A stretch of 10,933 nt of DNA from Sphingobacteriales bacterium (GTDB lineage: Bacteria; Bacteroidota; Bacteroidia; Chitinophagales; Chitinophagaceae), in NCBI GenBank assembly GCA_024640385.1, contig JAHEFC010000074.1, forward strand, positions 1-10,933, in the 5' to 3' direction. The position numbers and the translations under genes were made by a program. Position 1 is the stretch's first letter; the number at the start of each line of letters is the position of its first letter. The notes under the pieces were generated by a model that saw only the letters and a list, made by a program, of their open reading frames with translations, made no database searches and was not told the DNA's origin. Below are positions 253-10,933 of this stretch, piece after piece.

Positions 253-256
253 ATAA

Positions 257-279
257 ATCCGGAATCCGCAATCCGGAAT
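257..279 (+). repeat. Three tandem heptads (ATCCGGA type) just after a stop codon
   Basis: Units are ATCCGGA (257-263), ATCCGCA (264-270) and ATCCGGA (271-277), followed by a partial AT. They start four bases after the TAA of the permease gene and end four bases before the ATG of the cytochrome gene, so they fill nearly the whole 30-bp gap. Unit length matches the heptads at 8404 and 9602, while the unit sequence is different. Confidence 0.75.
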
Positions 280-282
280 AAA

Positions 283-1203
283 ATGATAAGACATCTTTCA
301 TTCATATCAATCCTTGTGCTCCTGGCTGCCTGCCAGGAGAAGCAGGAGCCCGCGAAGGCCCCTGTGGAGGAAGCACCCTGGCAGGGATGGAATAAATACC
401 AGATCAAGCCGGAAGACAGCCTTGCAGCATACGGACATGAGTTGATCGCAAACACATCATACTACCTCGGCCCTAAGGGCAAGGTGGCAGCACTGACCAA
501 TGGAATGAATTGTCAGAACTGCCACCTTGATGGAGGTACGGTTCCTTATGGAAACAATTACAGTGCAGTGATATCAACCTATCCCAAATTCAGGGGCAGA
601 AGCGGAACATATGAAACTATCCCGAAACGGGTAAATGATTGTATGGAAAGAAGCCTGAACGGTGTGGCACTTGATACCAACAGCAGGGAGATGCAGGCCA
701 TACTGGCTTACATGCACTGGATCGGTGATGATATACCTAAAGACTCCACACCAAAAGGCGCGGGCATTCCTGATCTCCCCGAGATGAACAGGGCGGCAGA
801 CCCCAACCTGGGAGCAATTGTTTATAAGAACAAATGCGCAGTCTGTCATGGACCTAACGGCGAAGGACAACCGAATGCTGAAGGTTATGGATATACCTAT
901 CCTCCCTTATGGGGCGATAACAGCTATAATGTTGGTGCCGGTATGTACAGGGTATCCAGGTTAGCCGGATATGCAAAATATAACATGCCTTTTGGCACGG
1001 CGAATTACAAGAACCAGGTGCTGACCAATGAAGAAGCCTGGGATGTGGCGGCTTATATCAATTCGCGTCCAAGGCCTGCTAAAGATCTTTCCAAAGACTG
1101 GCCTGATATCAAGAAGAAACCCAAGGATCATCCTTTTGGTCCTTATGCAGACGGACTTACAGAAGTTCAACATAAATACGGCCCCTGGAAAAAGGGAAAG
1201 TAA
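283..1203 (+). CDS. Lipoprotein diheme cytochrome c, TsdA-like (thiosulfate dehydrogenase / SoxA-type site)
   Basis: A 306-residue exported cytochrome. Residues 1-17 form a lipoprotein signal peptide with lipobox LAAC, so Cys17 should be lipidated. Two heme-binding motifs are present: CQNCH (77-81) and CAVCH (185-189). Between them lies the signature of thiosulfate dehydrogenase TsdA: Arg106, Arg116, Cys120 and Ser124 have the spacing recalled for the active-site Arg82, Arg92, Cys96 and Ser100 of Allochromatium vinosum TsdA, where the cysteine is the unusual axial ligand of heme 1. The sequence around heme 1 (NGMNCQNCHLDGG) is also TsdA-like. Met235 (YNMPFG) is a good axial-ligand candidate for heme 2. 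TsdA couples two thiosulfates to tetrathionate, and its fold is related to SoxXA. The gene lies 30 bp after the permease and 42 bp before soxB, so it may serve as a SoxXA substitute or as TsdA. Membrane anchoring differs from soluble TsdA. Confidence 0.85.
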   Translation: MIRHLSFISILVLLAACQEKQEPAKAPVEEAPWQGWNKYQIKPEDSLAAYGHELIANTSYYLGPKGKVAALTNGMNCQNCHLDGGTVPYGNNYSAVISTYPKFRGRSGTYETIPKRVNDCMERSLNGVALDTNSREMQAILAYMHWIGDDIPKDSTPKGAGIPDLPEMNRAADPNLGAIVYKNKCAVCHGPNGEGQPNAEGYGYTYPPLWGDNSYNVGAGMYRVSRLAGYAKYNMPFGTANYKNQVLTNEEAWDVAAYINSRPRPAKDLSKDWPDIKKKPKDHPFGPYADGLTEVQHKYGPWKKGK

Positions 1204-1245
1204 ACTCTCACATCACCGCATTCTCAACATTTCAAATTATTCACC

Positions 1246-2952
1246 GTGTGTGAAAACCATAACGATCGCCGAGACTTTATAAAGAACATTTCCCTGGCGG
1301 GCCTTGGCATGGCCGGCATACCTCAAATTGCATCAGCATACAACAATGATCCGGCCGATGAAAAGGGCTGGAAAAGATCAGCAGTGCTCCAGGAGGGGAA
1401 GGCACAGCGCATCACCCTGTTGCATACCGCTGATATCCACGCGCAACTTTATACGCACGACGAATTTTTCTGGGAAAATGGAAAAGCCGTGTACCGCAAG
1501 CTGGGAGGGTTCCCGGTGTTAAAAACCATGCTGAGAACGCTGAAGGCAGAAAACCCGGCGAATACCCTGATCATTGACGGGGGCGACTGTTTCCAGGGCT
1601 CTGGTGTGGCTGCACTCAGCGAAGGCAAGGCCATTGTACCACTGATCAATAATATAGACTATGACCTCACGCTTCCAGGTAATTGGGAGGTGGTGTACGG
1701 GAAAGAAATGCTGATGAAAGATATGGGGGGGTATAATGCCCAGAAGATCTGCGCCAATATGTTCCATGAGGAAACGGAGAAAAAAGGGGACCTTATGTTC
1801 CCTCCTTACTGGATCACGCATTTTGGCAATATGAAGATCGGATTCATTGGATATAACGATCCCTTGACCCCAAAGAGGCAATCCCCTGCATATTCAGCAG
1901 GAATCAAATTCACGCATCCCGATGTGAATGTTGCTAAATATGTGAAATACCTCAGAGATTATGAAAAATGCGGGATGGTGTTTCTCGTAACCCATATGGG
2001 CATTGCTCAACAGGTAGACCTGGGTAATAATCCGGCCGTGGCAGGAGTTGATTTTATCCTTGGTGCTGATACCCATGAGCGGGTGAGAAAACCGATTGAA
2101 ACTAAGTATACCAAAGTGACCGAGCCCGGCGCCTTTGGATCTTTTGTAGCTAAGCTGGATATCATTGTGGAAAATGGTAAGGTTAAAGAAACCCAGTATA
2201 AACTCCTTGAAGTTGATCCGGCAAAATATAAGCCGGATCCTGAGATGACCGAAATGGTGAAAAAAGCAGGAGAGCCCTACAAAGAGGAATTGAGCAAAGT
2301 GATCGGCAGCACCAAAACAACCCTGGTAAGGTATTTTGTGCTGGAAAATACCATGGATAACCTCATCACCGATGCTGTTTACTGGAAATTCAAACCAGAC
2401 ATCGCCTTGAGTAATGGATTCAGGTTTTGTCCTCCATTGGCAGTAGATGAAAAAAAAGGATCCCGTGAGATCACCAATGAATTTTTATGGAACATGCTTC
2501 CCGTGAACAGCGATGCAAAAACGGGGGAGATCACTGGAGAAAAGCTACTGGCCTGGCTGGAAAAAGAACTGCATAACGTATTTGCGAAAAAAGCCTCTGA
2601 AAGATTTGGCGGTTGGGTGGTGAGGTTTTCGGGCATGGAGATCAATATCACTGCCGGTAATGAAAAAGGCAAGCGGGTGAATTGGGTCAAGGTCAAAGGG
2701 ATGCCCCTTGACCTGCAAAAAACCTATCGAATTGTAGCCTGCGAACGGGAAGGTGATCCGGACGACATGATCTGCAGGGTGGAGAACGTAAGTAATCCCC
2801 AAGTCCTGGGCTATACGCTTCATGACGTCATCCGGGAGTACCTGGCAGCTAATTCTCCTGTTTCTCCAAAGATTGAAGGCCGGGTAACTGCCACTGATGA
2901 ACTTCCAACTCTGCTTACGCAATTGGAAGGATACGATTATGAATTTAGATAG
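1246..2952 (+). CDS. soxB: SoxB, thiosulfohydrolase of the Sox pathway
   Basis: A 568-residue protein of normal SoxB length in the metallophosphoesterase/5'-nucleotidase superfamily. SoxB hydrolyses the sulfane-sulfonate bound to the SoxY cysteine and releases sulfate in the periplasm, using a dinuclear manganese site. Metal-site motifs are in order: TADIHAQ (Asp63, His65), DGGDCFQG (Asp114), PGNWE (Asn146, with Trp where 5'-nucleotidases have His, as in SoxB), VTHMG (His250) and GADTHER (Asp275, His277). The C-terminal domain contains CEREGDPDDMICR (499-511). The N-terminus has a twin-arginine signal (DRRDFIKN, Arg8-Arg9, then a hydrophobic stretch). The start is GTG at 1246: upstream in frame there is no other start before the TAA of the cytochrome gene, and the next ATG (1309) would remove the Tat motif. 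No clear ribosome binding site is visible. It is the third gene of the likely operon. SoxYZ, its usual partner, is not in the window. Confidence 0.95.
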   Translation: MCENHNDRRDFIKNISLAGLGMAGIPQIASAYNNDPADEKGWKRSAVLQEGKAQRITLLHTADIHAQLYTHDEFFWENGKAVYRKLGGFPVLKTMLRTLKAENPANTLIIDGGDCFQGSGVAALSEGKAIVPLINNIDYDLTLPGNWEVVYGKEMLMKDMGGYNAQKICANMFHEETEKKGDLMFPPYWITHFGNMKIGFIGYNDPLTPKRQSPAYSAGIKFTHPDVNVAKYVKYLRDYEKCGMVFLVTHMGIAQQVDLGNNPAVAGVDFILGADTHERVRKPIETKYTKVTEPGAFGSFVAKLDIIVENGKVKETQYKLLEVDPAKYKPDPEMTEMVKKAGEPYKEELSKVIGSTKTTLVRYFVLENTMDNLITDAVYWKFKPDIALSNGFRFCPPLAVDEKKGSREITNEFLWNMLPVNSDAKTGEITGEKLLAWLEKELHNVFAKKASERFGGWVVRFSGMEINITAGNEKGKRVNWVKVKGMPLDLQKTYRIVACEREGDPDDMICRVENVSNPQVLGYTLHDVIREYLAANSPVSPKIEGRVTATDELPTLLTQLEGYDYEFR

Positions 2953-3042
2953 TCAGAGAGTCAGAGAGTCGGAGAGTCAGAGAGCCAGTGTGAAAAACGC
3001 TGACTTTGCCTCTCTGACTCTTTGCCTCTCCGACTCTCTAAT
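2952..3042. repeat. Inverted arrays of GTCAGAGA octads between convergent genes; probable bidirectional terminator
   Basis: The left arm has four tandem octads: GTCAGAGA at 2952-2959 and 2960-2967, GTCGGAGA at 2968-2975 and GTCAGAGA at 2976-2983; its first base is the last base of the soxB stop codon. The right arm (3011-3042) has the reverse complements TCTCTGAC, TCTTTGCC, TCTCCGAC and TCTCTAAT, and ends four bases from the stop of the minus-strand gene. Read on each gene's own strand, both arms start with sense-oriented GTCAGAGA-type units. The arms can pair in more than one register to form a long imperfect stem over a loop of about 27 bases. A T-rich run (3041-3048) follows on the plus strand, so it may terminate soxB transcription. 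Confidence 0.7.
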
Positions 3043-3046
3043 ATTT

Positions 3047-3739
3047 TTAGCCTGCAAAAATATACGAACAGCCTTTTTCCTGCGCTCTGCCCAGGGCCCA
3101 AACACCGGATGGAACAGGTTGTATATCCGGCAATAATGCGCTCATCCAGTCTTTCTTGATCTCCTCCGCAGGTTGTTTTGTTTTTTCCGCGATAGAGTTT
3201 GCAAAAACTGTAATGGCCATATTGCATACAGCGAATAAAACCCCGCTTTCCTGCAATTCGTTGATCCCGATAGCTACAGGCCCAATGCCTGGTGCAGAGA
3301 AATCTCCTTTAGCGGGTTTCCAAAAAGGATTTCGCAGGGCAGCTTTTGAAGTTTTTGGATCCGGGGCATCAAAAACTTCCCCGAATTTATATTTCTCCCA
3401 AACAGAATTGTCAAATGCGTAGGGGATGGCTGCATGACGGAGTACCACTACCGCGCAGCAATCATTTTCCGCTGCACCTGTAGCCTGGTTCGTAAGCAAA
3501 AAAACCCTCGGCCATGCAAAAGGGTAAATGCCATTAGGATGGGTAGCATCAAATACAATTTTGTGTTTTCCTTTGATACGATTGGTCCAGGCTTCCGGAT
3601 CTTCGGGACTGTACTGCCGGAAGAAATCCAGATCTGCTGGAAGCATGAAGGAGGACAAACCCAGTGCAGCAGCACCTGCAGTAAGAGAACCAATAAATTG
3701 GCGGCGGTTGGGAACCGATGAGGGATTTAGTGTGTTCAT
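3047..3739 (-). CDS. Tat-exported DsrE-like protein
   Basis: Taken from the ATG at 3739, the product has 230 residues. A longer in-frame start at 3871 would add 44 residues before the signal peptide and is unlikely. The N-terminus is a twin-arginine signal: NRRQFIGS with Arg12-Arg13, then the small hydrophobic stretch AGAAALGLSSFML. The mature part begins near residue 55 with KHKIVFDATHP and has alternating beta-strand and helix patterns typical of the DsrE/YchN fold. Its hallmark segment GVLFAVCNMAI carries Cys162, where DsrE-like proteins have the sulfur-binding cysteine. Other cysteines are Cys94-Cys95 and Cys224. DsrE-family proteins bind or transfer sulfane sulfur as persulfides. The gene converges on soxB and diverges from sqr, which fits a periplasmic sulfur-carrier or sulfur-binding role; this role is inferred. 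Family assignment rests on motif and fold pattern only. Confidence 0.7.
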   Translation of the reverse strand: MNTLNPSSVPNRRQFIGSLTAGAAALGLSSFMLPADLDFFRQYSPEDPEAWTNRIKGKHKIVFDATHPNGIYPFAWPRVFLLTNQATGAAENDCCAVVVLRHAAIPYAFDNSVWEKYKFGEVFDAPDPKTSKAALRNPFWKPAKGDFSAPGIGPVAIGINELQESGVLFAVCNMAITVFANSIAEKTKQPAEEIKKDWMSALLPDIQPVPSGVWALGRAQEKGCSYIFAG

Positions 3740-3976
3740 GAAAAAGAGTTTTATGAGTGAAGCATAAATTTCATTCCAAAGCTGGCAAGGGTAAGGAAAT
3801 TTGTCAATCGCCAATATGGGTGATGGCGGTAGGGTGTTGAGCTGATTCTTGTCATCTATAGTATAATTCATTCATTTTCAATAGCTTTAGAATGGTTCAG
3901 GCCAGGATTGTGTGATTATAATCACTATCAGAACCCCACTTCATTTCTACCTTTACCTCATCCTAAAAACATATGT
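3740..3976. other. 237-bp divergent intergenic region between the dsrE-like gene and sqr
   Basis: This is the largest gene-free stretch and must hold the promoters of both divergent genes. It contains the palindrome at 3911-3926 and a TATAAT hexamer at 3862-3867 with no well-spaced -35 partner. I found no exact TAnnTTTG element on either strand. The rest is A/T-rich with no clear structure. Frames stay open through part of it in both directions, which explains the overlong alternative starts of both neighbouring genes. Confidence 0.5.
3911..3926. promoter_or_regulatory. CRP/FNR-family-like operator upstream of sqr
   Basis: The 14 bases GTGATTATAATCAC (3912-3925) are a perfect palindrome. With the flanking bases the site reads TGTGA-N6-TCACT, nine of ten positions of the TGTGA-N6-TCACA consensus bound by CRP-type regulators. 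Its centre is about 58 bp upstream of the sqr ATG and about 180 bp upstream of the dsrE-like gene start, so sqr is the likelier target. Bacteroidota encode many Crp/Fnr-family regulators, but which one would bind here cannot be told. Confidence 0.5.
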
Positions 3977-5242
3977 ATGAGCACTCATTATAATGTTCTC
4001 GTGATCGGTGGCGGTGCAGGTGGAATCATGACAGCTGCACAACTTCGCAGGAAAGACAAAAAGCTTTCCATAGCCATTATTGAACCAGGCGATAAACACT
4101 ATTATCTCCCGGCATGGACACTTGTTGGTGCAGGTGCATTTAAATATTCCAGCACCATTAAGGATGAGAAGAAAATGATCCCACATGGTGTAAAGTGGAT
4201 CAAAGACTATGCAACAACATTCGATCCCGAATCGAATCTCGTAAATACAAAAAACAGTGGTGCCATCACTTATGATGCAATGATCATCAGCGGCGGTATT
4301 CAATATGATATTGATGCATTACCTGGTTTAAGGGAAGCGCTGAAAACCGATGTAGTATGCAGTAACTATCTCGATCCCGAAAAAACATATCGTGTATTGC
4401 AGAATTTCAAAGGAGGTAATGCTGTATTCACACAACCTGCCGGTGCCATCCGTTGCGGAGGCGCTCCGCAGAAGATCATGTACCTGGCTGAAGAATATTT
4501 TATCAAATCAGGAGTGCGTGAGAAGACCAATGTGATCTTTGCAACACCCGGTACCGTGATTTTCGGCACCAAGGAATTTGCTGATGAACTGAACCGTATA
4601 ATTGAAAGCAAACATGTAAACTTCAAACCTTATTATAAACCCGTTAAGATCGATCCTGTAAAACAGGAGATCAGTTTTCAATATATCAAACCTGATGTGA
4701 AAAAAACAGATGCAGATCTGGACAAGGTTGCAGGTGAACGTTTGGATGGAGAGAACCTGGTGACCATGCATTACGATATGCTGCACCTTGCTCCCCCGCA
4801 AAGCGCGCCAGACTTCATTAAACAGTCGCCATTTGCACACCAGGAAGGTCCTCATAAAGGATATGTGAATGTTGACATCCATACCCTTCAGCATGTGCAT
4901 TATAAAAATGTATTCGGACTCGGTGATAGTGCGGGTTTGCCTACTGCAAAAACAGGTGCAGCTGCACGCAAACAGGCCCATGTAGTGGTAGATAACGTGA
5001 TGCGCATCCTGCAAAAGCAACCGATTTCTGAGACCGTCTATGAAGGTTATTCATCATGCCCGATAGTCACAGGCTACGGCAAAATGCTGTTATGTGAATT
5101 CAAGTATGATAACCTTCGCGACAGTGATCCACTTCTTTCAAAATTCATAGATACTACCAAGGAAAAATGGAGCATGTGGATCCTGAAAAAATTCGGATTG
5201 CCCTGGCTCTATTGGAACATGATGATGAAGGGAAGAATGTGA
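3977..5242 (+). CDS. sqr: Sulfide:quinone oxidoreductase, type II-like (mitochondrial SQRDL-like)
   Basis: A 421-residue flavoprotein that oxidises sulfide to sulfane sulfur and passes electrons to membrane quinone. The N-terminal FAD-binding motif is VIGGGAGGIM (9-18). The two redox cysteines of SQR are present in recognisable contexts: Cys160 in AIRCGGAPQKIMYL, matching human SQR Cys201, and Cys361 in SSCPIVTGYGKM, matching human Cys379. Cys128 is an additional cysteine. The second FAD-binding segment is FGLGDSAGLPTAKTGAAA (313-330). The C-terminus (WILKKFGLPWLYW) is amphipathic and suits peripheral membrane attachment. The ATG at 3977 is preferred over one 69 bases upstream because the FAD motif then starts near residue 7, as usual, and the longer version would translate through the palindrome. 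An out-of-frame ATG at 3973 opens only six codons. It lies beside soxB and the dsrE-like gene, giving a sulfide-plus-thiosulfate module. Confidence 0.93.
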   Translation: MSTHYNVLVIGGGAGGIMTAAQLRRKDKKLSIAIIEPGDKHYYLPAWTLVGAGAFKYSSTIKDEKKMIPHGVKWIKDYATTFDPESNLVNTKNSGAITYDAMIISGGIQYDIDALPGLREALKTDVVCSNYLDPEKTYRVLQNFKGGNAVFTQPAGAIRCGGAPQKIMYLAEEYFIKSGVREKTNVIFATPGTVIFGTKEFADELNRIIESKHVNFKPYYKPVKIDPVKQEISFQYIKPDVKKTDADLDKVAGERLDGENLVTMHYDMLHLAPPQSAPDFIKQSPFAHQEGPHKGYVNVDIHTLQHVHYKNVFGLGDSAGLPTAKTGAAARKQAHVVVDNVMRILQKQPISETVYEGYSSCPIVTGYGKMLLCEFKYDNLRDSDPLLSKFIDTTKEKWSMWILKKFGLPWLYWNMMMKGRM

Positions 5243-5590
5243 TCAGTTCACATTAAGAACGATCCACTCTTTGATCATAGATCTCACCTTGTCGCTATTG
5301 GTGAGGATCTCGGATTCTGAAAATCTCAGTACGGTATAACCACCTAACCTGAAAAGCAATTCCTTTTCAGCAGCTTTTCTGAAGTTTTCTTTCTGATGCC
5401 CTGTAGCAGCATCGATCTCAATGATCAGGCGCAGTTTCAGAGACAAGAAAGCTGCATTTTGATCAAGCACTTTTATCCTTCTGTCAAAAGGATAACCCAA
5501 CATCTGATCATCTTTCAACACCTTATTCCAGAGGTGGGCCTCCGCGTCGGTCATCTTCTTGTTAAGGCCATACGTAAGTATCTGAACCAT
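5243..5590 (-). CDS. DUF559-family (Vsr/PD-(D/E)XK endonuclease-like) small protein, active site altered
   Basis: A 115-residue protein, normal length for DUF559. Typical features are in order: MTDAEAHLWNKVL (13-25), the GYPFDRR segment (32-38), LRLIIEIDAATGH (53-65) and GGYTVLRFSESEIL (83-96). The family resembles the very-short-patch-repair nuclease and keeps a D...ExD core of the PD-(D/E)XK type. Here the segment that normally reads (I/V/A)DF reads AAF: Ala47 stands where the first acidic residue is expected, eleven residues before Glu58, while Glu58 and Asp60 remain. The usual IDGxxH is also changed to IDAATGH. The protein may be a non-nucleolytic or decaying member. Its stop codon abuts that of sqr with no gap, in convergent orientation. 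Biological role of the family is poorly known. Confidence 0.8.
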   Translation of the reverse strand: MVQILTYGLNKKMTDAEAHLWNKVLKDDQMLGYPFDRRIKVLDQNAAFLSLKLRLIIEIDAATGHQKENFRKAAEKELLFRLGGYTVLRFSESEILTNSDKVRSMIKEWIVLNVN

Positions 5591-5787
5591 CTCAATAAGA
5601 AAAGGATTGTTCTTAACTCCTACCTATTTCGGTGCCGCCTCAATCTGTGAACATTTGCAACCGCTTATGCAGCATACTGTTCAACAATTCCAATCTTTTA
5701 CAAAAAATCGGGTAAACATTTCTACAATCACATCTGACCTGGCAACCGGCTTAAGGTCAACTCATTTTCTTTGCGTATTTTGTACAC
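5591..5787. other. Divergent gap between the DUF559 gene and the GH63-like gene
   Basis: This 197-bp region should contain promoters for both neighbouring genes. A short inverted repeat TAAGAA/TTCTTA (5596-5601 and 5610-5615) is present but too small to interpret. Just upstream of the GH63 start is TATTTTG, one base short of the Bacteroidota -7 element TAnnTTTG and with no properly spaced upstream TTG. I see no gene or RNA here. Confidence 0.4.
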
Positions 5788-8400
5788 ATGAATGCAGAAT
5801 CTCTAAGGCTGCAACAAAACGCAAGCAAAAAAATTCCTCTCGAACAATGGGGCCCCTATCTCTCCGAGCGCCAATGGGGGACAGTTCGTGAAGATTACAG
5901 CCATCATGGTGATGCCTGGCGCTATTTTCCTTTTGAACAATCACATTGCAGAAGCTATATCTGGGGTGAAGACGGGCTGGCAGGTATTTCTGATTATTTT
6001 CAGAATCTCTGTTTCTCAGTCGGGTTCTGGAACGGTCACGATAAGGTGTTGAAAGAACGAATGTTTGGCCTGGTGAACTTCGAAGGCAATCATGGAGAAG
6101 ACGTTAAAGAACTTTACTACTACCTCGATAATACGCCCACGCATTATTATATGGAATACCTGTACAAGTATCCGCACAAGGCATTTCCATATGAGAAACT
6201 GAGAGAGGAGAACAGGAAAAGATCCCGCCATGAACCAGAGTATGAATTACTCGATACCGGCATATTCGATAAAGACGAGTACTTCGACTGCCACATCACC
6301 TATGCCAAAAATAACAGCACAGATATTTTCATAAAGATCCAGGTGACCAACCGGGGTTCTCATGCGGCAGATTGTACGGTACTGCCCACACTATGGTTCT
6401 ACAACCGCTGGCAAACCGAAAAAAAGTTTCGCAAGCCTACCATCATCTTGAAAGATGAAAAGCATGTGAGGGCCACCCACGAAAGAATTGGTGCGTACAA
6501 TCTCTATTTCCAGAAAGCAGACAACCTGATGTTCACAGAGAATGAAACCAACCAGAAACTGGTTTCCGGAAAAGAGCATCGTTCGATCTATACTAAAGAC
6601 GCAATTAATGATGCCGTGATCAACGGCAAGAATCTACACCTGGTCAAGAAAAGAAAACACGGCACCAAATTCAGCCCGGTTTATAAACTGCATCTTAAAG
6701 CAGGGGAATCCAAAGAGATATACCTGAGGCTGGTAGACAGTGCCCCCGCGGATCCCTTCCCCTCCCAGTTCAAGCAATTGTTTGTTACCAGGAAGAAAGA
6801 GGCAGATGCGTTCTATGATGAAATACTGACCACGCCTAAAAATTCTGATATTCGAAGCATACAACGGCAGGCTCTTGCCGGTTTGCTCTGGAGCAAACAA
6901 TATTATCATTATGATGTAGAGAAATGGCTTTCCTCCGGAGACGGTATCACTGAGCCTGGGGATGGCAAGAAATGGGGCAGGAACCACGACTGGAAGCACC
7001 TGAAAAACCAGGATATCATATCGATGCCTGACAAGTGGGAGTTTCCCTGGTATGCTGCCTGGGACCTGGCATTCCAATGTATCCCACTTGCCATGGTGGA
7101 TCCCACATTTGCCAAAAACCAGCTCCTGCTGATCATGCGGGAATGGTATATGAAACCGGATGGTCAGCTGCCAGCCTATGAGTGGAATTTCTCAGATGTG
7201 AATCCCCCGGTGCAGGCATGGGCCGCGCTGGAAGTATTCAAAATTGAGAAACAGTATACGGGCCAGGGCGACCTGGTATTTCTCAAAAAAGCGTTTCATA
7301 AGCTATTGATCAATTTCACCTGGTGGATCAACAGAAAAGATCCCAACGGTAATAATATGTTCGAGGGCGGGTTCCTTGGCCTGGATAATATAGGCGTATT
7401 CAACAGGAGTGCACCCCTTAACGATAGTATGCACCTGGAGCAGGCTGATGGAACCGCATGGATGGGAATGTATGCGCTCAACCTGCTTGATATGGCATTG
7501 GAGATCGCCATGCATGATCCATCCTTCGAAGACGCGGCAACGAAATTTTTTGAGCAGTTTGTATTGATCGCCGAAGCGATCAATCATCATGGTATGTGGA
7601 ATGAGGAGGATGAATTTTTCTATGATACCCTCTCCATTTCCGGCAGCGCTCCCATACAGCTTCGTATTCAATCCATAGTTGGTCTTACCAGTTTATTTGC
7701 GGTATCCATTATAAGGAAAGAGATGATGGAAAAGCTTGACGATTTTTCCAAGCGCATCAGCTGGTTTGAGAATTACCGGAAGAAGAACAACCTGTTCTGG
7801 CCAAACGAAGAACACGGGGAACGCGACCGCACCCTGGTATCCCTGCTGCCCAGGGAAAGGCTGGAAGCCTTGTTGAAACGGGTTTTGAATGAAGATGAAT
7901 TTTTATCAGACAATGGCATCAGGGCGCTGTCAAAGTATTACGAGAAGAACCCCTACACTGTACATATTGCGGGCATAGACCATACTATCCAGTATGACCC
8001 GGGGGATTCAACCAGTGATTTTTTTGGCGGCAATTCCAACTGGCGTGGTCCTGTATGGATACCGATGAACTATCTTATCATCAGGAGCATCAGGCGATAT
8101 GGAAGGTTTTATGGTGATTCGCTGAAAGTGGAATTTCCTACCGGCAGCGGTGAAAAGTATAACCTGAAAGAGGTGGCCAATAAACTAACGGAAAGGCTTA
8201 GCCGAATGTTCCTGAAAGATGAGGAAGGCAAGCGTCCCTGCTTTGGCGAATATCACGAATTCTATACCCGGCCGGGCAATGAACATCTTGTTTTGTTCAA
8301 TGAATATTTCCACGGCGATTCAGGTAAAGGACTGGGAGCCAGTCACCAGACAGGGTGGACGGCACTTATTGCTGAACTGATCGAGAGAGCAGGGAAGTAG
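5788..8400 (+). CDS. Cytoplasmic GH63-like glucosidase (MGH1/YgjK-type catalytic domain)
   Basis: An 870-residue protein with no signal peptide, hence probably cytoplasmic. The N-terminal 350 or so residues are beta-rich (for example CRSYIWGEDGLAGISDYFQ) and the C-terminal half is the (alpha/alpha)6 barrel of GH63-type enzymes. Conserved barrel segments are FPWYAAWDLAF (419-429), QLPAYEWNFSDVNPPVQAW (around Tyr464-Glu465-Trp466), WRGPVWIPMNYL (752-763) and FGEYHEFYTRPG (819-830). By analogy with YgjK and bacterial mannosylglycerate hydrolase, Asp426 is the likely general acid and Glu821 or Glu824 the likely base; this assignment is inferred from motif position. GH63 enzymes are inverting and act on alpha-glucosidic or related bonds; the exact substrate is unknown. 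The gene looks monocistronic, flanked by the 5591-5787 gap and by a heptad repeat and hairpin terminator. It has no evident link with the sulfur genes. Confidence 0.85.
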   Translation: MNAESLRLQQNASKKIPLEQWGPYLSERQWGTVREDYSHHGDAWRYFPFEQSHCRSYIWGEDGLAGISDYFQNLCFSVGFWNGHDKVLKERMFGLVNFEGNHGEDVKELYYYLDNTPTHYYMEYLYKYPHKAFPYEKLREENRKRSRHEPEYELLDTGIFDKDEYFDCHITYAKNNSTDIFIKIQVTNRGSHAADCTVLPTLWFYNRWQTEKKFRKPTIILKDEKHVRATHERIGAYNLYFQKADNLMFTENETNQKLVSGKEHRSIYTKDAINDAVINGKNLHLVKKRKHGTKFSPVYKLHLKAGESKEIYLRLVDSAPADPFPSQFKQLFVTRKKEADAFYDEILTTPKNSDIRSIQRQALAGLLWSKQYYHYDVEKWLSSGDGITEPGDGKKWGRNHDWKHLKNQDIISMPDKWEFPWYAAWDLAFQCIPLAMVDPTFAKNQLLLIMREWYMKPDGQLPAYEWNFSDVNPPVQAWAALEVFKIEKQYTGQGDLVFLKKAFHKLLINFTWWINRKDPNGNNMFEGGFLGLDNIGVFNRSAPLNDSMHLEQADGTAWMGMYALNLLDMALEIAMHDPSFEDAATKFFEQFVLIAEAINHHGMWNEEDEFFYDTLSISGSAPIQLRIQSIVGLTSLFAVSIIRKEMMEKLDDFSKRISWFENYRKKNNLFWPNEEHGERDRTLVSLLPRERLEALLKRVLNEDEFLSDNGIRALSKYYEKNPYTVHIAGIDHTIQYDPGDSTSDFFGGNSNWRGPVWIPMNYLIIRSIRRYGRFYGDSLKVEFPTGSGEKYNLKEVANKLTERLSRMFLKDEEGKRPCFGEYHEFYTRPGNEHLVLFNEYFHGDSGKGLGASHQTGWTALIAELIERAGK

Positions 8401-8403
8401 ATT

Positions 8404-8434
8404 CAGGTTGCAGGTTGCAGGTTGCAGGTTGCAG
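8404..8434 (+). repeat. Four tandem CAGGTTG heptads just after the GH63 gene
   Basis: Four perfect copies of CAGGTTG (8404-8410, 8411-8417, 8418-8424, 8425-8431) plus a partial CAG. They begin three bases after the TAG stop and precede a separate hairpin terminator at 8461-8501. The same repeat occurs in reverse complement at 9602-9633. Both neighbouring genes are on the plus strand, so the element is tied to the upstream gene's end rather than to a convergent pair. Confidence 0.85.
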
Positions 8435-8460
8435 AGGGGGGATTCTTCTTTATGAATAAT

Positions 8461-8501
8461 TGCATGAACTGGCGGGCTTTGGCCTGCCAGTTGCATTTTT
8501 T
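8461..8501 (+). terminator. Rho-independent terminator after the GH63 gene
   Basis: An 11-bp stem pairs AACTGGCGGGC (8467-8477) with GCCTGCCAGTT (8482-8492), closed by the tetraloop TTTG, with one G-T wobble. The stem can extend with TGCA (8461-8464) and TGCA (8492-8495) past a small bulge. Six T residues follow at 8496-8501. It lies 61 bases after the stop codon. Confidence 0.85.
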
Positions 8502-8598
8502 ACTACTAAGGCATCCTGGCTTTTGTAGTCTTGCAATTTCCGCTGTCAGATAAGATCTGCTGCGGTAAAATCAATTAAGGATCGGGTAGATACGGTAA

Positions 8599-8606
8599 TA
8601 GGTTTG
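8599..8606 (+). promoter_or_regulatory. Bacteroidota-type -7 promoter element before the desaturase gene
   Basis: TAGGTTTG matches the Bacteroidota -7 consensus TAnnTTTG exactly. Transcription would start around 8611-8613, about ten bases before the ATG at 8622. No clear TTG element is seen about 20 bases upstream, so the call is tentative. The element overlaps the alternative TTG start at 8604 and argues against that start. Confidence 0.4.
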
Positions 8607-8621
8607 AAGAAAATCAGATGT

Positions 8622-9593
8622 ATGAACTTCAATCCTAATCTCCTGCTACATGCTGCTCCCGCCATGGTGCTCCTCGCAATCAGTGAGTTCCTCCTCATGA
8701 ATCATGAACACCGCAGTAAGGAGACCAGGCGGAATCTGCTCAATAGCTATATCATAGCCGCAGGTTTTCTAACCGTTACGGCCGCCATGAAAGCGATACC
8801 GTTCATGCTGTATACATGGTTATTCCAGTTCAGGCTGTTTGATTTTGAGCTATCTGCCTGGTGGGTGTTCATATTGGCCATACTATGTGATGATTTCACC
8901 TGTTACTGGTCGCACAGAATGACACATTCAGTAAGGTTTTTTTGGGCCTCACACCTGGTGCATCATTCTTCGGATACATATAATCTCACATCCGGATCAC
9001 GGCAATCCTGGGTTAGTGTATATAGCGGATCATTCCTCATGTGGGCCTGGCTTCCATTGGTAGGATTTTCTCCGGAAATGATCCTTTATGTTAAATCGAT
9101 CAGTACCATTTACCAGTTTTTCCTTCATACAGAACAGATCAGGAAACTGCCGTTGTGGATAGAATTTGTTTTTAATACGCCTTCCCACCATCGTGTTCAT
9201 CACAGTTCTGATCTTGAGAACCTTGATATGAATAACGGCGCGATGCTGATCATCTGGGACAGGATATTCGGCACATTCAGGGAAGAAAGATCGATGGATC
9301 ATCATTACGGACTTTGCAAAAAGATCGAAGATCCAACACCTGTTTCCATAAATTTTGCTGAATTCTCAGATATGTTGAGGGACGTGAAAAAAGTCAGCGC
9401 TCTCAAACATAAATTCATGTACGTTTTTGGCGCACCTGGTTGGAGCCATGATGGAAGCACAAAAACAGCAAAACAACTCAGGAAAGAATGTTCAGACGAT
9501 CCAACTAGAATTGTAGTCATGCGATCTATGGCTAATGACCCTGCTGAATTCAGCAGAGAAAGACTAAAGCATCAGATGATCAATGCGATGTAA
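8622..9593 (+). CDS. Sterol desaturase / fatty acid hydroxylase superfamily membrane protein
   Basis: A 323-residue integral membrane di-iron enzyme candidate. The histidine boxes of the superfamily are present: HRMTH (98-102), preceded by Asp90-Asp91; HLVHHSS (111-117); and HHRVHHSS (189-196), the last after the FNTPSHH segment typical of the family. Hydrophobic spans lie at about residues 8-23, 40-70, 78-90 and 127-160. The last 80 or so residues are polar and probably cytoplasmic. Family members use a di-iron centre and oxygen to hydroxylate or desaturate lipids, sterols or carotenoids; the substrate cannot be inferred. The ATG at 8622 is chosen over a TTG at 8604 because the latter overlaps a likely promoter element. 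It has its own terminator-isolated unit and is flanked by heptad repeats in inverted orientation. Confidence 0.9.
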   Translation: MNFNPNLLLHAAPAMVLLAISEFLLMNHEHRSKETRRNLLNSYIIAAGFLTVTAAMKAIPFMLYTWLFQFRLFDFELSAWWVFILAILCDDFTCYWSHRMTHSVRFFWASHLVHHSSDTYNLTSGSRQSWVSVYSGSFLMWAWLPLVGFSPEMILYVKSISTIYQFFLHTEQIRKLPLWIEFVFNTPSHHRVHHSSDLENLDMNNGAMLIIWDRIFGTFREERSMDHHYGLCKKIEDPTPVSINFAEFSDMLRDVKKVSALKHKFMYVFGAPGWSHDGSTKTAKQLRKECSDDPTRIVVMRSMANDPAEFSRERLKHQMINAM

Positions 9594-9601
9594 TAGGCTA
9601 T

Positions 9602-9633
9602 CTGCAACCTGCAACCTGTAACCTGCAACCTGC
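9602..9633 (-). repeat. Four tandem heptads, reverse complement of the CAGGTTG array
   Basis: On the plus strand the units are CTGCAAC, CTGCAAC, CTGTAAC and CTGCAAC, plus CTGC and a trailing A; one unit has a single change. On the minus strand they read CAGGTTG, like the array at 8404. The array starts eight bases after the desaturase stop and ends eleven bases before the convergent GH95-like gene's stop. Read with the minus-strand gene, it is again a sense-oriented CAGGTTG array just after a stop codon. Confidence 0.85.
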
Positions 9634-9644
9634 ATTAGGGTCAG

Positions 9645-10933
9645 TCACAATTCAGCCACTAATTTCAGACTGCTTCCTCTTTCCAGCCAAACCTTCAACA
9701 TTCCATTTTCTTCTTTTAACCCTGCAGATTTTCCGGTCAGGGTTTTTTTCCATTTGCCTTCGGGAAGTTTAAGGACCAGGTTACCATCTACTGTGGCAAA
9801 TACCTCTATGTTACTCATCTTCCCCCCAACCTTCTTCGCATTCACAAGATAAGCTCCTTCTGTTCTCAGGGAATTAAAGGAAACATCAGTCCAGCTGGCG
9901 GGCACAGCAGGCATGATCTCGATAAAACCTGCATATGACTGTATCAGCATTTCCTGCAATCCTGCTGCAAAAGCGAAATTTCCTTCCAGTGTAAATGGCC
10001 TGTAAGTAAATGTAGAATAGCCCGATTTCGTTTGGTCGCCATTGAGGTGAAAACTGTTGGGGGAACAAAATGCCTTTGCAAAGATCTGCAGCGCTTTGGC
10101 AGCTCCAGCTCCGTCTTTTGCCCTGGCCTTAAGATTGGCTTCCCACGCATAAGAGTAGCCGCACCAGTTAGCAGGACCAATACTGTCAAGCAATTTGAGA
10201 GAGTTTTGAATGATCGTTTTCTGTTTATTGCCATCTTCCCATCTAATAAGTCCCAAAGGATGGATCGCCATCAGGTGAGAAAAATGCCGGTGCGATACAT
10301 TATAAGGAAGGGTACTGGCAAACATGAGTTCATTGGCCGGGCTCAGGGAAAACTCATCAAAACTTTTCAGCAGCTCATTCCATTTTTTGGCTTCGTTCTT
10401 TTTGCCGAGTTCATTGGCAAGCTCTGCTGCAGTTTTATAAATGAATTTCATCAGGGCCAGGTCGTAATTGGTGTTGGTATTGAACCAGGCGGATAGACTG
10501 TTGTCGTTGATCTCCGGACTGGCGCTGATGGGAAGCTTTCGTTTTCCATTGGCATCCAGTACGGTGATATTGGTGATGAATTCCGCGGTTTCTTTCACCC
10601 AGGGGTATGCCCTTTTCTCCAGGAAATCCCTGTCCATGCTATATTTCCACTGCCAATAGTAGTGTTGGGCCAGCCAGCAACCTACTGTTGGGGAGAGGGA
10701 ATATTGGATCCATCCTCCCATCTCTGTTCCATCCAGCGTGGTTACTCCGGGCACATTCAAACCCTCTACACCAAAATACAATTTCGTGTACCGTTTATAG
10801 TTAGCCTTGTTGCTGTCGAGATGATCGAGATAAACCATAGCTTCTTCCAGGTGATTACCTGAATAGGCAGGCCAGTAACTGAGTTGTGTATTCAGATCGT
10901 GATGGAAATCACCTTTCCATGGTGGTATGCGGC
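9645..10933 (-). CDS. GH95-like glycoside hydrolase, C-terminal part
   Basis: The frame is open to the right edge, so about 429 codons of the 3' part are visible and the N-terminus is missing; the ATG at 10838 is internal. Reading in from the edge, the segment DFHHDLNTQLSYWPAYSG corresponds to the GH95 core motif (usually NxN then NYWPA). Further motifs are SASPEINDN (glutamate codon 10512-10514, likely general acid), SHRHFSHLMAIHPL, and FTLEGNFAFAAGLQEML, followed by the C-terminal IEIMPAVPASW and a beta domain. GH95 enzymes are inverting, with an (alpha/alpha)6 barrel, and include alpha-1,2-L-fucosidases and L-galactosidases, usually exported. In this protein the first Asn of NxN is Asp (10896-10898) and the Asp of the usual IDGNFG motif is Glu (9984-9986), so fucosidase activity should not be assumed. 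The gene converges on the desaturase gene. Confidence 0.82.
   Translation of the reverse strand, partial: RIPPWKGDFHHDLNTQLSYWPAYSGNHLEEAMVYLDHLDSNKANYKRYTKLYFGVEGLNVPGVTTLDGTEMGGWIQYSLSPTVGCWLAQHYYWQWKYSMDRDFLEKRAYPWVKETAEFITNITVLDANGKRKLPISASPEINDNSLSAWFNTNTNYDLALMKFIYKTAAELANELGKKNEAKKWNELLKSFDEFSLSPANELMFASTLPYNVSHRHFSHLMAIHPLGLIRWEDGNKQKTIIQNSLKLLDSIGPANWCGYSYAWEANLKARAKDGAGAAKALQIFAKAFCSPNSFHLNGDQTKSGYSTFTYRPFTLEGNFAFAAGLQEMLIQSYAGFIEIMPAVPASWTDVSFNSLRTEGAYLVNAKKVGGKMSNIEVFATVDGNLVLKLPEGKWKKTLTGKSAGLKEENGMLKVWLERGSSLKLVAEL

Follow-up and report, generated by a model that had tools for sequence, protein, structure and literature searches.

Tandem arrays of 7-8-base units at gene ends of a Sphingobacteriales bacterium: candidate repeat-built hairpins of common polarity

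Why should several stop codons in one short stretch of a bacterial genome be followed at once by tandem repeats that agree in the length of their unit and differ in its sequence? The question is raised by a stretch of 10,933 nucleotides (the window; G000:C29:1-10933) from the draft genome of a Sphingobacteriales bacterium (G000; 4,084,565 bases in 585 contigs, 94% complete), in which a first-pass annotation had pointed to four stop-adjacent arrays of 7-8-base units. All four are found by Tandem Repeats Finder (TRF) (Table 1), and three lie far beyond a Markov model, scoring 18-24 under a stricter scoring rule when 200 Markov-1 copies of the window contain no array with a score of at least 13 (periods 5-12); the array at 256, with a score below 10, is weaker and, by that rule, not beyond doubt. 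The inverted copy of one array, at 3011, had been mentioned as a side detail. This copy is real, and inverted pairing with a fixed polarity proves to be the main feature of the whole class. We suggest, with slightly less than even confidence, that these repeats form gene-end hairpins that might end or protect transcripts in both directions.

Inverted pairing and polarity of the arrays

The octamer array that TRF calls at 2947-2988 (period 8, 5.2 copies, 88% match, spanning the stop codon at 2950-2952) can form with its inverted copy a hairpin whose RNA, at 2950-3049, folds with -53.3 kcal/mol on the plus strand (z -9.05) and -51.3 kcal/mol on the minus strand. The arrangement recurs elsewhere in the genome. 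Within a sample of G000 made up of contigs C1-C80, taken by number (603,422 bases, ~15% of the genome), an inverted partner lies no more than 120 nt away from 29 of 48 arrays, compared with 18 of 240 in a control that uses the flanks of other arrays; for the congener G016 the corresponding counts are 19 of 29 and, with exchanged flanks, 19 of 145. The arms of the hairpins measure ~13 to 50 nt. Samples of congeners were picked by contig number, except that of G034, which was picked by its matches, and the G016 sample was enlarged once hairpins had appeared in its first four contigs; the cut-offs were fixed after the first listings had been inspected, and genes were called with a codon-based script, so that start positions are approximate.

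Of 57 hairpins, 53 begin with the purine-rich arm: 31/34 in G000, 15/15 in G016, 3/3 in G020, 4/4 at the loci of named genomes described below and 0/1 in G019, six period-15 hairpins of a separate family, all pyrimidine-first, being left out of these counts. All three exceptions in G000 carry the near-neutral unit ATTCCGG, and counted by unit family the order holds in 14 of 16 (p=0.004). CAGGTTG precedes CAACCTG, AAAAGTC precedes GACTTTT, GGCGAGAG precedes CTCTCGCC and GAGAAAA precedes TTTTCTC. Across all of G000, sampled contigs included and with gaps of 0-30 nt only, a CAGGTTG hairpin pattern gives 76 matches (overlaps counted; 28 separate places among the matches listed) with the purine-rich arm first and none in the reverse order, and an AAAAGT hairpin pattern gives 10 to 0 (9 places). 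Since the order of the arms in a palindrome is identical on both strands, this polarity belongs to the hairpin and not to the direction of one gene. Stems in coding sequence are unbiased (42:47 and 40:47), and ordinary intergenic stems lean purine-first too (23:13 and 16:7). Moreover, 18 of the 34 hairpins of G000 sit between same-strand genes; as such hairpins have only one stop nearby, two convergent arrays, each in the sense of its own gene, do not explain them. That units without any relation in sequence have one polarity suggests that the hairpin is what they have in common. In the AAAAGT family, a GC core flanked by runs of A and of T is present at 3 of the 9 listed places, as in a two-way terminator.

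Units, placement and species differences

For periods from 4 to 15, the G000 sample contains 62 arrays: period 7 accounts for 36, period 8 for 10, period 14 for 6 and period 15 for 7, and 3 have other periods. Of the 62, 57 are intergenic, including 33/36 of period 7 and 9/10 of period 8; three Markov-2 copies of the sample contain none. Among the units are CAGGTTG (19 arrays), AAAAAGT/AAAAGTC, AATCCGG, GGCGAGA and octamers resembling AATCCGCC or AGAGAGT. In the whole genome, an 18-base CAGGTTG pattern that tolerates one mismatch matches 246 times in the forward and 274 times in the reverse direction, overlaps counted, and its reversed control not at all. Three or four copies per array, as initially described, is a loose summary, given that the period-7 CAGGTTG arrays of the sample have 3 to 10 copies, with 4 copies in 8 of 19. 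At L093:9191-9300, CAGGTTG arrays separated by GCATAGCATCCCCGTGCAACT are part of a larger block that is itself repeated, so that a repeat of higher order lies behind a stop codon.

With respect to gene ends, arrays of period 6-8 (score at least 8) occur within 30 nt of 77 of 476 stops and 29 of 477 starts in the G000 sample, so that the impression of an array at nearly every gene end with room for one holds in the window (4 of 5 such regions) but not in the genome. Against a null in which each array of period 6-9 is placed at random within its own intergenic region, 22 of the 42 usable G000 arrays are no more than 12 nt away from a stop (11.9 expected) and 6 within that distance of a start (5.6 expected); in G016, 13 of 22 arrays are that close to a stop (4.2 expected) and one to a start (0.9 expected). 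Random placement relative to stops, or equal closeness to starts, is therefore not seen in these two genomes. The same counts for stops and starts are 3 (0.7 expected) and 2 (0.8) for 12 arrays of G019, 2 (0.8) and 2 (0.5) for 8 arrays of G020, and 4 (1.3) and 0 (1.0) for 15 arrays at 80 loci of named genomes, which hold the best 80 named relatives of the window's 870-residue glycoside-hydrolase-like protein; the preference for stops over starts thus extends to G016 and not to G019. Those named relatives belong to Chitinophagaceae or to loosely labelled Bacteroidota metagenome bins, so that the genome of the window is itself probably one of the Chitinophagaceae. By class of region, convergent regions are the richest and divergent ones the poorest, with 16 arrays for 56 convergent, 23 for 183 same-strand and 3 for 62 divergent regions in G000, and 13 for 34, 8 for 123 and 1 for 55, respectively, in G016.

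Orientation follows position as well. In same-strand regions of all samples pooled, purine-sense arrays number 18 near the stop and 5 near the start, and pyrimidine-sense arrays 5 and 15 (p=0.0007), three G019 arrays running the opposite way. Furthermore, 59 of 76 single arrays follow the rule that purine-rich arrays lie near the left border of the intergenic region and pyrimidine-rich ones near the right; these 76 remain once arrays are left out that lie within a gene, are not flanked by genes on both sides, fall in regions longer than 400 nt, are equidistant from the borders or are equal in purine and pyrimidine content. The stops themselves may differ in the G000 sample, where TAG accounts for 10 of 25 array-adjacent stops and 84 of 451 others; in G016 (4/14 and 56/351) the difference is not clear.

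The units are largely the property of single species. Arrays detected by the 18-base CAGGTTG pattern (one mismatch) occur in 2 of 59 other genomes, G034 and G002, with 8 matches in total, and the congener samples show units of their own: TTCGTTG and GTTCATA in G019, AATTATG-like units in G020, GAGAAAA and GAGGCAAG in G016, and CTGCCTA and others in G033. The samples of G008 (80 kb) and G030 (21 kb) contain no arrays. Among orthologues of the gene at 5788-8400, 7 of 80 ends carry a period 6-8 array, each with a different unit, compared with 22 of 1037 other stops at the same loci (p=0.003), a count that concerns this one gene and assumes that the 80 ends lie among the 1117 called stops. This is suggestive of arrays that may recur at orthologous gene ends with changed units. 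Two further genes sought in relatives have matches in 50 and 19, respectively, of 195 genomes, a count that includes the genome of the window itself. One locus of the orthologue set, L161, also holds an inverted CTAACTA-type array ~100 nt beyond its orthologue-end array; although titled Sphingobacterium thalpophilum, it is apparently one and the same contig as L112 of the congener G020, whose array-bearing sequence it carries, and the title is probably a wrong label.

Action of the hairpins and its alternatives

In our reading, the arrays are the building blocks of gene-end hairpins: in over half of the cases, a purine-rich array of 7-8-base units, often right after the stop codon, precedes a loop and then the inverted complement. 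As a palindrome reads alike on both strands, one hairpin can serve both of two convergent genes. RNA polymerase would transcribe the purine arm first and the pyrimidine arm second. The RNA-DNA hybrid of pyrimidine RNA on purine DNA is of the weak type, and the forming hairpin might strip it out and release the transcript with no need of a U-tract. Growth and shrinkage of the arms by slippage would yield 7-8-mer arrays, and each species would drift to units of its own. If true, this would account for period-7 repeats behind stop codons. A gene-end hairpin acting on RNA as a terminator or 3′-end shield appears to be the best-supported account, with modest support beyond position and polarity. 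Median folds behind stops are -37.0 kcal/mol with hairpins and -12.5 at other stops in G000, and -49.7 and -19.1 in G016, low energies that are expected by construction from inverted arms. U-tailed terminators, in the two genomes pooled, follow 3 of 60 stops in hairpin-bearing regions and 55 of 373 others (p=0.04), and convergent regions of G000 are not longer with a hairpin (median 93.5 vs 111, p=0.70).

Several observations weigh against this proposal. Nineteen of the 48 G000 arrays are unpaired, including two of the window's three in that set, one of which, at 8404, precedes an ordinary terminator. The deficit of U-tailed terminators is weak, becoming 6/86 (p=0.08) when unpaired arrays are counted and standing at 3/26 for unpaired arrays alone, and at least 5 T in the 8 nt after the stem, on either strand, are present in only 11/34 hairpins of G000 and 9/15 of G016. 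Hairpin ends are only mildly nearer to stops than random (18/30 vs 13.9 expected in G000; 6/10 vs 3.5 in G016). Same-strand regions of G000 are longer with a hairpin (114.5 vs 79, p=0.026), as insertion would give, and so are G016 regions of both classes (128 vs 56.5, p=0.009; 283 vs 66.5, p=0.0015). The order of variant units is mirrored between arms no better than chance (29 hairpins, summed score 602 vs 583); copying of the arms by inversion, which predicts an excess of mirrored variants, was rejected on the same 29 hairpins. In G019, 16 arrays include one hairpin, which is pyrimidine-first, and none of the four arrays tested obeys the position rule. Finally, how one unit came to fill a genome falls outside every account offered here, our own included.

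Part of this evidence would suit a purely neutral origin, in which 7-8-mer arrays arise anywhere by slippage, persist where they are harmless (behind stops and off promoters), acquire partners by template switching between nearby complementary strands and have no function. More arrays have period 7 than any other period (36 of 62, with 10 of period 8), as an earlier survey cited in PMC4679880 reported for bacterial simple repeats, arrays are scarce between divergent genes, where promoters lie, and units differ between species; moreover, G019 arrays are almost without hairpins, variants are unmirrored and most region classes are longer with a hairpin. Slippage alone, however, yields neither inverted partners nor a single polarity such as the 76 to 0 and 10 to 0 of the genome-wide patterns, unless that polarity followed from purine-rich-in-sense seeding combined with partners formed solely on the intergenic side, and it does not give the same unit at many scattered places. 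We regard an origin of this kind as a serious rival, though a less probable one than our proposal.

A single unit at many dispersed places in one species is what a mobile element would produce, be it similar to repetitive extragenic palindromic (REP) elements and REPINs or to miniature inverted-repeat transposable elements and served by a Y1 transposase, or templated 3′-end addition by a reverse transcriptase. A hint of this sort comes from G016, and it too counts against our proposal: AACAGCCA or its complement is present in 8 of 15 hairpins with several different arm units, and 0 times in 33.6 kb of other intergenic DNA and 29 times in 445 kb of coding sequence in the same sample, a distribution that may reflect copies of one element. 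Over most of their length, two of the loops, at L142:136 and L242:75, are inverted versions of each other, and a pattern joining the AACAGCCA core to a TTTTCTC arm has 3 matches, only in G016 among five genomes. The core may be a terminator core, or else a mark of common descent or the remnant of an element; it is also seen as TGGCTGTT, e.g., in the hairpins L142:136-252 and L242:75-218. The loops of G000 are mostly unshared, which makes whole hairpins there unlike copies of one element: of the 561 possible pairs among the 34 loops (2-68 nt), 9 have a 10-base word in common, for the most part from leftover repeat units, and after masking each top-ranked word of 7 or 8 bases is confined to a single loop. 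The genome-wide list for G000 does contain a loop, AGCAAAAAATC, common to two places on contig C175, and GCACATTT, common to three places. Y1 transposase matches, at most candidate RAYTs (the partner transposases of REP elements), number two in G000 (one strong) and one in G016; G008, with no array in its 80 kb sample, has such matches too, and where data on both transposases and arrays exist, in a few genomes, the two show no relation. Reverse-transcriptase-made repeats were rejected, as G000, G016, G019 and G020 have no PF00078 match (E up to 0.001). On balance, a mobile or templated origin seems improbable.

The proposal of a 3′-end element that might bind an RNA-binding protein fares differently in its two parts: the link with gene ends stands for G000 and G016, and the sequence-specific protein site is unlikely, given that the units are unrelated and that single copies of CAGGTTG outside arrays occur at expectation between genes (11 vs 11.4 expected) and slightly above it in coding sequence (195 vs 167.4). 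A single-copy motif, whether a Chi site, an uptake signal or a protein site, was rejected on the basis of the same frequency between genes. A G-quadruplex signal, proposed like a protein site for other heptamer arrays, would fit the GG tract in each copy of CAGGTTG and the four copies in 8 of 19 arrays, a copy number whose preference in Xanthomonas has been tied to quadruplexes (PMC4692102). Yet each genome has unrelated units, and AAAAGTC, GTCAGAGA and GAGAAAA show the same architecture with no G-tracts; we consider a protein site or quadruplex very improbable.

Features of the window and known repeat families

TCCGGA at both ends of the array at 256-279 can pair in a short self-stem (RNA of 250-285, -8.9 kcal/mol, z -2.86). 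The array at 8404-8434 has no inverted partner with a score of at least 10 within 120 nt. The array at 9602-9634, whose distances to the two flanking stops are 8 and 10 nt and which is purine-rich in the sense of the minus-strand gene, likewise has no inverted partner with a score of at least 10, and its RNA fold is not significant (z 0.69 and -0.33). An Rfam scan of the window gave nothing at gathering score.

Table 1. Coordinates of the arrays, hairpin parts and related features; positions refer to the window unless a locus is named.
Feature	Position	Strand	Remarks
Heptamer array AATCCGG	256..279	+	TRF: 3.4 copies, 88% match; 3 nt past stop 250-252
Purine-rich 5′ arm, octamer array GTCAGAGA	2951..2984	+	Starts inside stop 2950-2952; paired part 2955-2984
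Hairpin loop, 25 nt	2985..3009	no strand	Between the two octamer arms
Pyrimidine-rich 3′ arm, inverted array	3010..3039	-	7 nt from stop 3047-3049 of the convergent gene
Heptamer array CAGGTTG	8404..8434	+	TRF: 4.4 perfect copies; 3 nt past stop 8398-8400
U-tailed terminator-like hairpin	8467..8492	+	11-pair stem, tail GCATTTTTTA; downstream of unpaired array 8404-8434
Heptamer array CAGGTTG	9602..9634	-	TRF: 4.7 copies, 92%; between stops 9591-9593 (+) and 9645-9647 (-)
15-base-unit palindromes	L057:3287-3351, L090:10055-10112, L035:9779-9821, L055:5659-5707		

Pfam matches in the window identify the end of a sulphur-transport protein, a cytochrome c, a 5′-nucleotidase-family protein, a Pyr_redox_2 oxidoreductase and a DUF559 protein, together with a GH63/MGH1-like protein, a fatty acid hydroxylase and a GH95 enzyme; the open reading frame at 3047-3736 has no Pfam match. 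The sulphur-transport protein, the cytochrome c, which has a SoxA/TsdA-like domain, and the 5′-nucleotidase-family protein lie together within 1-2952 and are possibly a sulphur-oxidation cluster. The palindromes in the last row of Table 1, built of the 15-base unit TACCTCCAAGGTCCC and its complement, form a separate, REP-like family; their loops are short and, in contrast to the heptamer hairpins, the pyrimidine-rich arm is the first.

REP elements proper lie behind stop codons, as do many of the arrays described here, and have a conserved palindrome, whereas the arms here are tandem arrays of varying unit. REP and REPIN sequences are short palindromes present in many copies between genes (PMC12306157). 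The shared loop of such elements is absent among the G000 loops, the two places on C175 excepted; G016, with its core in 8 of 15 hairpins, comes closer.

Heptamer repeats near bacterial genes have long been noted, and the first-pass annotation's statement that there is no named family is to be corrected accordingly, as heptamer arrays near stops have been published for Xanthomonas and Nostoc (Rehm et al., 2015; PMC4692102) and TAACTGA arrays for other bacteria (MacGregor, 2015; PMC4679880); both papers leave the role open. The TAACTGA arrays, known from marine Beggiatoaceae, cyanobacteria and five Bacteroidetes, are likewise intergenic heptamer arrays of patchy distribution across species; they differ in lying, in the main genome, mostly just upstream of starts, and in having one unit and one indirect repeat (PMC4679880). 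TAACTGA is absent from the 19 period-7/8 unit families of the G000 sample, in which starts are not enriched (6 vs 5.6 expected). Nearer to the TAACTGA pattern are some heptamer arrays of G019, at L120:12647-12673 and L120:2790-2844, which abut called starts and have no inverted partner. The arrays of G000 also resemble heptanucleotide long simple sequence repeats, a class of tandem arrays with units of 5-11 nt, in unit length and intergenic location, being longer than chance, most often heptameric and mainly non-coding. The short tandemly repeated repetitive (STRR) sequences of cyanobacteria share the unit length of 7 and the intergenic location as well. For neither group is a hairpin polarity at gene ends described in the material consulted.

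A close parallel is provided by the GGGNATC heptamer arrays of Xanthomonas and Nostoc, which are dispersed between genes, have the G-rich strand in sense within 50 bp of stops and are under-represented between divergent genes; two Xanthomonas genomes contain 70 and 75 inverted pairs in 'convergent orientation', and Nostoc few (Rehm et al., 2015; PMC4692102). We read this orientation as the same G-rich-first polarity that is seen here. Heptamer arrays, a bias to stops, rarity between divergent genes and inverted pairs are thus common to both systems. The GGGNATC repeats, however, have one G-rich unit type, with quadruplexes in view, whereas many unrelated units, octamers among them, and turnover between congeners characterize the present arrays, and by inspection AAAAGTC, GTCAGAGA and GAGAAAA lack quadruplex-capable G runs. 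What appears to be new is that one polarity holds for many units unrelated in sequence, some of which have no G-tracts; among the papers searched, mainly open-access ones, none was found on many-unit repeat hairpins at gene ends in Bacteroidota. A broader idea, which we consider possible but doubtful, is that the lineage builds and rebuilds gene-ending hairpins from self-expanding 7-8-mers with a repeat vocabulary specific to each species, selection keeping the pairing and the purine-first polarity, and that the G-rich heptamers of Xanthomonas are the same device, with the stem and not the quadruplex doing the work.

Hairpin terminators are known to lie close behind the stop, and a trail of U residues is not necessary in all bacteria (PMC8355165). 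The repeat hairpins described here lie likewise close behind the stop and differ in their construction from tandem repeats, which is not described in the consulted part of that work. If they do act on transcripts, they would make up a class of rapidly evolving gene ends that escapes terminator finders relying on U-tracts.

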